A stretch of DNA of 55,258 nucleotides from an uncultured Alphaproteobacteria bacterium (GTDB lineage: Bacteria; Pseudomonadota; Alphaproteobacteria; Rs-D84): positions 1 to 55,258 of the forward strand of contig CALXMR010000002.1 of NCBI GenBank assembly GCA_944389525.1, read 5' to 3'. The notes beneath the pieces are model-generated. The model was not told the DNA's origin and did not search any database. It was given only the letters and a program-made list of their open reading frames with translations. Every line of letters starts with the position of its first letter. Within the stretch, counting starts at the first letter, position 1. Positions 45,670-51,800 of this stretch are shown here, in pieces. A program made the translations under genes and the position numbers.

Positions 45670-46542
45670 TTAGTTTCCATAGTAACATATACCTTCGCCG
45701 GCGGTATCTACATTCCAATCCCAATAAAAATTTCCGGTACCATCATTCATTATGACCAGACAGTCCGAACCGCAATTTCTTGCGAAACAGTCGGTTATAT
45801 CTGTTGATCCGGGGGCACTGCTCACCGTTGTATAGTCATATGGATTTTCAACAATTTTAATACCAGTGCTTTCGACCGTGGGACATTGTTTACATCCAGA
45901 AAAAGAGGTTCCATTAACAACAGGGTTGCCGTAATACCCGGCGGCGCACCTATACTCGTCTATTGCCGTCAATGTACAAGAGGTTGGCGAATGCTTCCTT
46001 TTATAATTTTGTTGATATCCGGTCTTGCCCGATACATTACGCCAATTATCACTGTCTTCGTCACATATAGAACAACCGGTGCAATGGCCGAACGTAAGTG
46101 TTCCATTTTCGACGGTTGTGGTGCATGTTGGGGTGCTGGTCTGGTATACCTTCTGGCCGTTATAATAGGATTTACATTCAAACTCTATTCCCTCACTACA
46201 TTGGCGATATTCGTGCAAACGTTGGGTGGCGATGGTGCCAACATCTTCGAAAGGTATTGGATTACAAGCGTATGTATCATAATTCTCGCCTGTTTCATTA
46301 TTTATGGCCTCACCAAATGGAACCTTAGTATAACAGGAGTCGCATCGGTTGCATGTACCAAAAGTCGCCCATTCATAACACACCTCGTTGCCATGTCCCA
46401 ATTTTTTTGGATTTACACACGCCTGGAAAGTGTAATAATCCAGACACCCATCTACCGACTCCCCGTGGCTTGGCCGTATCGTCATGCAAAATAAACAACA
46501 TATTATGATAAATTTACTGAAAAAAATTCTTTTGTTTGGCAT
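45670..46542 (-). CDS. secreted Cys-rich protein (hypothetical, possibly phase-variable)
   Basis: A 290-residue protein with a signal peptide (MPNKRIFFSKF...RPSHGES, about 1-27) and 21 cysteines in the mature part, spaced as in small disulfide-rich domains (CNRCDSCY, CTGCSICDED, CKQCPTVES). A C-A-A-G-Y-Y-G block near the centre resembles EGF/GCC2-type repeats. It has no lipobox and no membrane helix beyond the signal. Its start is secure (GGGAGA 8 bases before the ATG at 46542; the frame opens 35 codons earlier into an inverted repeat). The promoter region upstream is bracketed by inverted repeats (see that entry). Function unknown; surface or secreted interaction is inferred. Confidence 0.82.
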   Translation of the reverse strand: MPNKRIFFSKFIIICCLFCMTIRPSHGESVDGCLDYYTFQACVNPKKLGHGNEVCYEWATFGTCNRCDSCYTKVPFGEAINNETGENYDTYACNPIPFEDVGTIATQRLHEYRQCSEGIEFECKSYYNGQKVYQTSTPTCTTTVENGTLTFGHCTGCSICDEDSDNWRNVSGKTGYQQNYKRKHSPTSCTLTAIDEYRCAAGYYGNPVVNGTSFSGCKQCPTVESTGIKIVENPYDYTTVSSAPGSTDITDCFARNCGSDCLVIMNDGTGNFYWDWNVDTAGEGICYYGN

Positions 46543-46560
46543 AACAATTTCTCCCGTACT

Positions 46561-46684
46561 GCCTAGTCCAAACGGTGGTTTAAAACCAGCAAAAAAGCAA
46601 TTGACAGTGGCGCGGAAAATATGTAAAAATTTACAGTGAAAGAACAAAAAATATGCCTAATCTAAACCACCGTTTGGATTAGGC
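46561..46684. repeat. inverted repeats bracketing a promoter: candidate invertible element
   Basis: Left repeat 46561-46582 and right repeat 46663-46684 are 22-bp inverted copies with one mismatch. Each contains the core AAAC-N4-GTTT (AAACGGTGGTTT on the left, AAACCACCGTTT on the right), so they are sites in opposite orientation. The right site is itself part of a 30-bp near-palindrome (46655-46684) of two 14-base arms around a central AC, the expected form of a serine-recombinase crossover site. The 80-base interior holds a promoter reading away from the Cys-rich gene. Confidence 0.65.
46601..46629 (+). promoter_or_regulatory. promoter inside the inverted repeats, facing away from the Cys-rich gene
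   Basis: A perfect TTGACA (46601-46606), a 17-bp spacer and TAAAAA (46624-46629). In this orientation it reads toward the 3' end of convergent glyS and serves no gene. Inverting the bracketed segment would point it at the Cys-rich gene. No comparable promoter is seen on the minus strand. Confidence 0.5.
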
Positions 46685-46702
46685 GCAGGAAGTTAACTAA
46701 CC

Positions 46703-46730
46703 AGCCTAAAATTCATATGAATTTTAGGCT
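46703..46730. repeat. 28-bp perfect palindrome downstream of glyS
   Basis: A perfect palindrome with arms AGCCTAAAATTCAT lies 55 bases after the glyS stop. No U-tract follows on the minus strand, so it may be a weak glyS terminator or a protein-binding site. Confidence 0.6.
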
Positions 46731-46784
46731 GTTTGATGATATAAAATAGCACCATACGATTTATATGGGGTGGATTGGATATAT

Positions 46785-48146
46785 CTATGAATTTATAATT
46801 TCCATAACACGGCGTGGCACATCAGCAATGGCAACGCGTTCTTGTTCCATTGTATCGCGATGACGCATGGTCACGGTATTATCTTCCATTGTTTGATGAT
46901 CGACCGTGATGCATACCGGGGTTCCGATTTCATCGTGCCGGCGATAGTTTTTACCAATATTCCCAGAATTTTCCAGTTCTATCCGACCAATATGTAATTT
47001 ACGCAGTTCGTCTTCGATATTATTTGCGATGGTCAGCAGTTCTGGTACATTGCGCACCAGTGGTATAACCGCCGCCTTGACCGGCGCCAACGATGGTTTC
47101 AGTTTTAATACCAATCTTGATTTACCATCTGGTAATTCTTCGTCTGTATACGCGTCCAGCATAACGGCCAACATCGCCCGGTTAACCCCCATTGCAGTTT
47201 CAATCACATATGGGATAAAGTTTTCGCCTGTTTGTGGATCACTGTACGACAGTTTGATTGTGCTGTCTTTGTTTTCCATAACATGTGCATTGATGTTGAA
47301 TTCCGACTGTGCCTTGGTATGTGAGCCCAGGTCAAAGTCTTGACGATTATGAATACCTTCGACTTCGTCAAAACCATCGGGGAATTCGTATTCGATATCA
47401 CCGGCCGCCTTGGCATAATGCGCCAGTTTTTCATGTGGTGTAAAGCGTAATTTTTCCGCCGGAATTCCCAATGTGTTCACCCACCAATCCATGCGAATTT
47501 TTTTCCACATTTCAAAATATTTTTCGTCATCGGCGGGGTTTACAAAGTACTGCATTTCCGCCTGTTCAAATTCGCGCATGCGAAACACGAACCCGCGCGG
47601 GGATATTTCATTACGAAACGCCTTGCCAATTTGGGCGATACCAAACGGCAACTTGTGCGGGCGGGCATCCAACACATTTTTAAAGTTTACATATGTTGTG
47701 GTTGCCGTTTCCGGGCGCAGATATGCATTTATTGCACCATCTGCGGTTGCACCAATAGACAGCCCCATCATCAACTGGTACGCGCGTGGCGGGGTCAGAT
47801 CCGCGCTGCCACAGTTGTCGCACTTGGTTTGGTCTTTCATTTTATCTTGGCGCATGCGTGCACCGCACTTTTTGCATTCGACCAATGGGTCAGAAAAACT
47901 GCTTTCGTGACCGGAATATTTCCACATTAACCGATTGCTGATTAACGCGGCATCCAGTCCTTCGATATCATTACGGGAATAAACCATGGCGTTCCACCAT
48001 GCGTTGCGAATATTTTTCATTAATTCTGCACCGTACGGACCATAATCGTACGCACCACCTAATCCGCCATAAATTTCAGACCCAGTGAAAATAAATCCGC
48101 GCCGCTTGCACAATGCGACAATATCATTAATTGTTTTTGCTGGCAT
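46785..48146 (-). CDS. glyS: glycyl-tRNA synthetase, alpha2 (single-chain) type
   Basis: A 453-residue class II synthetase charging tRNA-Gly. N-terminus DIVALCKRRGFIFTGSEIYG and GGAYDYGPYGAELMKNI are typical of the eukaryote/archaea/Gram-positive alpha2 enzyme. A zinc-binding pair (CKKCGARM and CDNCGSAD, about 92-114), RPETATTTYVNFKN, motif 2 (GKAFRNEISPR) and motif 3 in AMGVNRAMLAVML are present, with the anticodon-binding domain from AVIPLVRNVPELL. Most proteobacteria use a two-subunit GlyQ-GlyS enzyme instead, so this points to an unusual lineage or ancient replacement. Transcribed alone. Confidence 0.95.
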   Translation of the reverse strand: MPAKTINDIVALCKRRGFIFTGSEIYGGLGGAYDYGPYGAELMKNIRNAWWNAMVYSRNDIEGLDAALISNRLMWKYSGHESSFSDPLVECKKCGARMRQDKMKDQTKCDNCGSADLTPPRAYQLMMGLSIGATADGAINAYLRPETATTTYVNFKNVLDARPHKLPFGIAQIGKAFRNEISPRGFVFRMREFEQAEMQYFVNPADDEKYFEMWKKIRMDWWVNTLGIPAEKLRFTPHEKLAHYAKAAGDIEYEFPDGFDEVEGIHNRQDFDLGSHTKAQSEFNINAHVMENKDSTIKLSYSDPQTGENFIPYVIETAMGVNRAMLAVMLDAYTDEELPDGKSRLVLKLKPSLAPVKAAVIPLVRNVPELLTIANNIEDELRKLHIGRIELENSGNIGKNYRRHDEIGTPVCITVDHQTMEDNTVTMRHRDTMEQERVAIADVPRRVMEIINS

Positions 48147-51073: not shown

Positions 51074-51667
51074 ATGGTATATGGATACATACGGGTCAGT
51101 ACAGACCATCAAGATTGTAAAAATCAAAAACTGGGGATAGAGGCCAAGGCCACTGCACTGGGGTTGAGTATAGATAAATACATCGAAGACGCCGGTGTTT
51201 CCGGCATCAAAGAGCCCGATGAGCGTGCATTGGGCGGATGTTTGCGTAAATTGCGAATGGGCGATGTGATAATTTGCAGCGAACTGTCGCGTCTGGGGCG
51301 CAAGTTGTTCATGATTATGCGAATCCTGGAACATTGTATGCAAATTGGTGCCAAGTTGTATACGGTCAAAGACGGCTATGAATTAGGTGATAATATACAG
51401 TCCAAGGTCCTGGCGTTTGCGTTCGGTCTGTCAGCGGAAATAGAACGCGATCTTATCAGTCAGCGTACAAAGGAGGCTTTGTATAAGCGAAAATTGTTGG
51501 GTATCAGACTTGGACGCCCCCAGGGATCCAGAAATAAACACTATAAATTAGACGGACAAAGGGACTATGTGAAACATATGCTGTCAAAAGGGGTGCCGCG
51601 CTACAAAATTGCAAGAAAAACCGGTGTTTCTCGTGCCACATTAAGACGGTTTATAGGTACTTTTTAA
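51074..51667 (+). CDS. serine DNA invertase/resolvase (Hin/Mpi-like)
   Basis: A 197-residue small serine recombinase. The N-terminal catalytic domain has YGYIRVST with nucleophile Ser9 and Arg7, and SELSRLGRK with the second pair of active-site Arg; FAFGLSAEIERDLISQRTKEAL forms the long E-helix. RLGRPQGSRNK leads into a C-terminal helix-turn-helix (KGVPRYKIARKTGVSRATLR). This architecture matches Hin/Gin and the Mpi invertases of Bacteroides, which flip surface-gene promoters; resolvases are similar and cannot be excluded. AAAGGGGGGGG lies a few bases before the ATG. It is downstream of an integration scar and upstream of polysaccharide genes, consistent with an acquired segment. Confidence 0.9.
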   Translation: MVYGYIRVSTDHQDCKNQKLGIEAKATALGLSIDKYIEDAGVSGIKEPDERALGGCLRKLRMGDVIICSELSRLGRKLFMIMRILEHCMQIGAKLYTVKDGYELGDNIQSKVLAFAFGLSAEIERDLISQRTKEALYKRKLLGIRLGRPQGSRNKHYKLDGQRDYVKHMLSKGVPRYKIARKTGVSRATLRRFIGTF

Positions 51668-51669
51668 TT

Positions 51670-51756
51670 TTCGTTTATTTTGTTCGAAATAACAAGTTGC
51701 ATTTGCTTAGTTTTTGGTTATTATTAGGCCAGAGACGACAGGATAAAATAAACGAA
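51670..51756. repeat. inverted repeats bracketing a promoter-like sequence
   Basis: TTCGTTTATTTT (51670-51681) and AAAATAAACGAA (51745-51756) are exact 12-bp inverted copies. The right copy belongs to AAACGAACGTTT (51750-51761), a palindrome around a central AA that fits the AAAC-N4-GTTT core of the repeats near 46.6 kb. The left copy keeps only one half-site. Between them lies TTGCAT (51697-51702), 16 bp, TATTAT (51719-51724), a promoter-like pair reading toward the glycosyltransferases. Confidence 0.45.
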
Positions 51757-51800
51757 CGTTTAATAGTTCCTGTATTTGTATATGTTTTGTCGTCTGGGTT

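Follow-up and report, generated by a model that had tools for sequence, protein, structure and literature searches.

The window analysed here, a 55,258-nt stretch of the genome of an uncultured alphaproteobacterium of the order Rs-D84, carries a minus-strand gene (45670-46542) for a secreted Cys-rich protein of 290 aa with 24 cysteines and a hydrophobic N-terminus. The size of the source genome, 0.92 Mb, agrees with the genome reduction reported for Ca. Enterousia, which belongs to this order (PMC12306168). Beyond the gene start at 46542 lies an element at 46561-46684, followed by an unstranded 18-bp inverted repeat (46699-46734), probably a terminator, which separates the element from a convergent glycyl-tRNA synthetase gene.

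The element is bounded by two inverted repeat arms (46561-46582 and 46663-46684) that are complementary at 21 of 22 positions and 80 nt apart, as the first-pass annotation had described. A search for 22-mer inverted repeats with no more than one mismatch within 400 bp gave this single case in the 55-kb window and nothing in 40 first-order Markov replicates. The right arm lies within a 30-bp near-palindrome around a central AC, in agreement with the annotation, and the left arm is its partner around GT. The two 30-bp sequences are the putative recombination sites, one gene-proximal (GCCTAGTCCAAACGGTGGTTTAAAACCAGC, 46561-46590, minus strand, central GT at 46575-46576) and one gene-distal (GCCTAATCTAAACCACCGTTTGGATTAGGC, 46655-46684, plus strand, central AC at 46669-46670), with 94 bp from centre to centre. 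The near-perfect palindrome of the right site could also suggest that the repeats function at the RNA level, as a hairpin or terminator, rather than as recombination sites. However, this palindrome lacks a U-tract and was not scored as a terminator, no terminator-like hairpin in the interior of the element is more stable than about -0.9 kcal/mol, and pairing of the distant arms would leave the central-dinucleotide rule described below unexplained, which makes a purely RNA-level role scarcely credible.

The candidate invertible cargo (46591-46654, plus strand) is of the promoter type. As in known invertons, the inverted repeats flank a promoter, here with the sigma-70-type boxes TTGACA (46601-46606) and AAAAAT (46625-46630), an 18-nt spacer and a TG before the -10 box (46601-46630, plus strand). 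The place of this promoter had been annotated correctly, but its spacing had been given as TTGACA-17-TAAAAA; TTGACA-18-AAAAAT, one base later, is the better assignment. The -10 box is weak relative to the consensus used, that of E. coli. The promoter reads on the plus strand, away from the Cys-rich gene (OFF), as previously claimed, and no minus-strand consensus promoter upstream of the gene was found in 46400-46850.

A second element of 97% identity is located in the same genome at C3:135929-136052 and is turned the other way with respect to its gene. The promoter is kept in this copy, where it is directed at a ribosome-binding site and an ATG, after which a signal-peptide-like sequence (MRKKLLFTICAF) begins; only the first 36 bases of this gene are present before the contig ends. 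Comparison of the two elements in the gene direction showed an identity of 58.6% as assembled, which rose to 96.0% when the window element was inverted in silico at the central dinucleotides. The distal hybrid site created by this inversion (GCCTAATCCAAACGGTGGTTTAAAACCAGC) is matched letter by letter in the C3 copy. Both orientations are represented between these loci, OFF in the window and ON in the C3 copy, where this and the following orientation comparisons are made between paralogous loci, MAG assemblies giving one orientation per locus.

Sites, spacing and cargo of the cassette family

The site pattern is present in 33 of 96 same-genus genomes, with the reversed-pattern control near zero, and related Ca. 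Enterousia genomes contain dozens of such site pairs. The centre-to-centre spacing of 57 distinct pairs is 85 bp in 37, 84 bp in nine, 86 bp in five, 83 bp in two, 94 bp in two, and 95 and 109 bp in one each; 53 of the 57 elements fall within 83-86 bp. The central dinucleotides, which belong to the six central bases omitted from the scoring of sites, are inverted-complementary in all 57 pairs, with 49 AC, seven GA and one AG; one further entry classed as 'other' in this count is an incomplete site at the end of a contig. The flanking core positions agree in only 74-84% of the same pairs. The dinucleotide rule also holds in 19 of 20 held-out pairs, which came from a later search, were not used to form the rule and add an AA pair; the exception is G045:C2:219492. 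Serine recombinases need a matched 2-bp centre, in inverted orientation, for inversion. Matched dinucleotides such as these are expected of serine-recombinase inversion, and the sites display the corresponding geometry, a 2-bp central overlap that both share in inverted orientation.

The contents between the sites are predicted to be of three kinds, a promoter, an intrinsic terminator, or a ribosome-binding site with a start codon and the beginning of a signal peptide, with promoters and terminators judged by bacterial consensus and folding energy. For each kind, both orientations were found at paralogous loci. A TTGACA-type promoter is present in 25 of 50 distinct interiors, compared with 1.8 in shuffles. 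Most promoter cassettes point away from the gene, and three face it (on C3 of the source genome, in G011 and in G097). In-silico inversion of the G011 OFF cassettes relative to the ON cassettes gave no gain in identity, because their interiors differ. The terminator cassettes of G020 lie downstream of a fixed TTGTAA-17-TATAAT-type promoter and contain a unidirectional terminator, a CCCGG-ATTT-CCGGG hairpin with a T-run, that is directed toward the gene at three loci and away from it at two; in-silico inversion raised the identity between the two forms from 73.7% to 94.9%.

The start modules comprise a ribosome-binding site, an ATG or GTG and a few N-terminal residues (for example MQKSGIF or MRKTGIF), and their reading frame continues across the site (...MPNLN.GL...) and into that of a signal-peptide gene. 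A ribosome-binding site and start with at least 80 codons open past the site occur at 19 of 29 non-promoter loci, compared with 5.6 with permuted flanks. Start modules with the same interior in G048 are ON at one locus and OFF at two, and the identity of an OFF to the ON cassette increased from 64.8% to 97.4% upon in-silico inversion. A homologue of the window Cys-rich protein is located behind a start-module cassette in G048; the G081 ortholog of the gene (47% identity) has no site pair within the stretch examined. A start-module cassette at G020:C6:43625-43740 would be fused not to a secreted protein but to a GT2-like glycosyltransferase (IPVYN).

Inverted pairs of palindromic 30-mers spanning about 115 bp, with many intergenic copies in some genomes, are also reminiscent of dispersed non-coding repeats (REP/REPIN-like or MITE), in which case no inversion would occur and the promoter and its orientation would be incidental. 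However, passive repeats are not expected to show the fixed spacing, the central-dinucleotide rule or the exchange of half-sites between oppositely oriented copies, nor functional cargo far above controls, in-frame reading through the site or the co-occurrence with an invertase clade described below. Such an origin is very improbable, and non-exhaustive inspection by eye of the flanks of the copies showed no target-site duplications or linked transposase. Readings as a REP/MITE, an RNA hairpin or an integron attC were rejected on the dinucleotide rule and the cargo. Viral contigs scanned with the cassette interior gave no match.

Most promoter and start cassettes were assembled OFF, in tallies that are approximate because genes in the short flanks were called mechanically. 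Flipping could therefore be infrequent, or a good number of the elements could be dead. This large OFF majority, together with the window spacing of 94 instead of 85 bp, would fit a former switch that is now locked OFF in the source lineage. However, 94-95 bp corresponds to 84-85 bp plus one helical turn and is shared by the C3 copy and a G011 cassette, whose promoters both face the gene, and both sites of the window element are intact, as is their matching GT/AC centre. A locked state is thus unlikely. The oppositely turned copy, the crossover-exact exchange of half-sites, the conserved dinucleotides and the fixed spacing strongly support the proposal of the first-pass annotation, an invertible promoter in the OFF state with the geometry of serine-invertase switches. 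The element at 46561-46684 very probably acts as a phase-variation switch in which an invertible promoter cassette of 124 bp has been captured OFF, and it belongs to a genus-wide family of cassettes. We infer from the comparison of paralogous loci that the cassettes flip in living populations, and the orientation of the cassette would be expected to set the expression of the gene.

Candidate invertases and a second site pair

The source genome encodes three Mpi-family serine invertases. One of them is located in the window at 51074-51667 (plus strand), 4.4 kb from the element as previously noted, and has relatives in Candidatus Enterousia and Alphaproteobacteria MAGs from animal guts. Its Mpi score of 256 bits is under the cut-off of 272, whereas those of the enzymes at C3:88075 (309.6 bits) and C2:159128 (303.9 bits) are above it. 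In a tree of 47 Mpi proteins, the 51074 invertase falls into clade B (11 rows) and the C3:88075 enzyme into clade A (15 rows, support 100/96). Sites of the 46561-46684 family are present in 13 of 15 genomes with a clade A Mpi versus three of 20 without one (p=3e-5). Sites without a clade A enzyme are found in G023, G042 and G006, and a clade A enzyme without sites in G003 and G017.

The 51074 gene carries a site pair of its own at its 3' end. The first site (TAATTTTCGTTT, 51665-51676, minus strand) has a central TT and the second (AAACGAACGTTT, 51750-51761, plus strand) a central AA; the two are inverted, 85 bp from centre to centre, and lie upstream of two glycosyltransferase genes. The region 51652-51774, which immediately follows the clade B Mpi gene, is likely a second invertible switch.

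The switch at 46561-46684 could be real and yet be flipped by the neighbouring 51074 invertase, as the first-pass annotation implied: the enzyme is of the Mpi family and close by, and invertases often adjoin their targets. However, the pair owned by this enzyme is of different sequence, with its own TT/AA centre, the clade B genes of G012 and G007 are likewise followed just downstream by unlike inverted repeat pairs, and four genomes with clade B and without clade A (G007, G014, G040 and G046) have no sites of the 46561-46684 family. The neighbouring enzyme is therefore quite unlikely to flip the element, and its implied role is probably wrong, since it belongs to the other Mpi clade and the site family tracks the clade of C3:88075. 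The clade A Mpi at C3:88075-88665 is the likelier partner, because of the co-occurrence with the sites and the separate site pair of the 51074 invertase. We infer the identity of the enzyme in this way from a correlation across genomes.

In the proposed mechanism, a clade A Mpi serine invertase, most likely that at C3:88075-88665, would act in trans and pair the two palindromic sites. The enzyme would cut at the central dinucleotides (GT/AC), exchange strands and rejoin them with about 94 bp inverted. In the resulting ON state, the TTGACA promoter would read through the proximal site into the Cys-rich gene, with 72 nt between the -10 box and the ATG in the in-silico inverted sequence. In the OFF state, as assembled, transcription from the promoter would enter the region of the convergent glycyl-tRNA synthetase on its 3' side. 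Across Ca. Enterousia, one site grammar and an Mpi-type master invertase probably flip promoters, terminators and start/signal-peptide exons alike, and the differing dinucleotides (AC, GA, AG and AA) would keep the cassette classes from recombining with each other.

Relation to known switches and further loci

Master switching of dispersed promoters is known from Bacteroides Mpi (PMC5903667, PMC8375218). The cassettes resemble the Mpi promoters of B. fragilis in the putative master serine invertase of the same family, in the AAAC-like half-sites within inverted repeats and in the dispersed surface-gene promoters (PMC5903667, PMC8375218), and as in an Mpi regulon, an Mpi-family serine invertase is encoded in the genome. 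In contrast to B. fragilis, the host here is an alphaproteobacterium with a 0.9-Mb genome, the cargo is of three kinds and the central dinucleotide varies among cassettes. The core of the sites, AAACCACCGTTT in a 30-bp palindrome, differs from the Bacteroides consensus ARACGTTCGTN and shares only its AAAC half, and the cassettes measure 85-95 bp between centres, compared with 183-186 bp for the invertible promoters of B. intestinalis (PMC8375218).

An invertible terminator is known from Clostridioides difficile cwpV, where RecV acts on a segment behind a fixed upstream promoter that forms an intrinsic terminator when OFF, as in G020 (PMC2784873). However, cwpV uses a tyrosine recombinase and a 195-bp segment, whereas the enzymes here are of a serine-invertase family (PMC2784873). 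The same kind of site pair here also carries promoters and start modules, in contrast to cwpV. In Mycoplasma vsa, the inversion involves the 5' coding end. Site-specific inversion joins expression signals to surface-protein genes in the Mycoplasma Vpma and vsa systems, as it would here (PMC2268961). The Mycoplasma systems have one expression site for a gene cluster, whereas here every gene is served by a separate cassette, and the recombination site is part of the translated signal peptide. Intragenic invertons, reportedly described by Chanin and colleagues in 2024 (cited in PMC11892184), are said to alter coding sequence by inversion, as here; the inverted module here differs in supplying the ribosome-binding site and start to a gene otherwise without an in-frame start.

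No report of such switches in Ca. Enterousia was found in the searched literature, which consisted mainly of open-access papers. What is new here is the host lineage, the short fixed spacing, the matched-but-different dinucleotides, the three control levels served by one site family and the translation of the site in the signal peptide. This suggests that genome-reduced, uncultured gut Alphaproteobacteria maintain a large bet-hedging system for secreted proteins, in which transcription initiation, termination and translation start would share one recombination grammar. The cassette-specific matched dinucleotides would provide naturally orthogonal sites for serine recombinases that lend themselves to tests in E. 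coli, and existing metagenome reads can reveal which secreted proteins are ON in each host.

Several further loci were noticed in the source genome (G000). An inverted pair with a variant core (AAAGGTTGGTTT) and 74 bp between centres, located at C6:5345-5430, surrounds a TGGACA-18-TATACT promoter that faces a signal-peptide-like gene; this is perhaps another switch, in the ON state. A solitary perfect palindrome with the self-complementary centre AT lies at C3:118112-118141. In the adjacent gene, the start of the signal peptide seems to be thrown out of frame by a T7 run; the locus may be a relic switch or a case of slipped-strand variation. The end of C8 (C8:21908) and the start of C13 (C13:1) are each one base inside a site, with the gene on one side and the promoter on the other, suggesting that both flank one cassette left unjoined by the assembler. 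Suggestively, these two ends fit mixed orientations; most other contig ends of the genome are ordinary repeats. An identical signal-peptide start (MRKKLLFTICAFC) recurs at the end of C3 and at the starts of C4 and C11, marking a gene family whose repeated 5' end breaks the assembly. Positions 1-180 of the window hold a further repeat (TTGTCATTGCGAGCGTAGCG...), likewise present at other contig ends (C1), which is a dispersed intergenic repeat of a separate kind.
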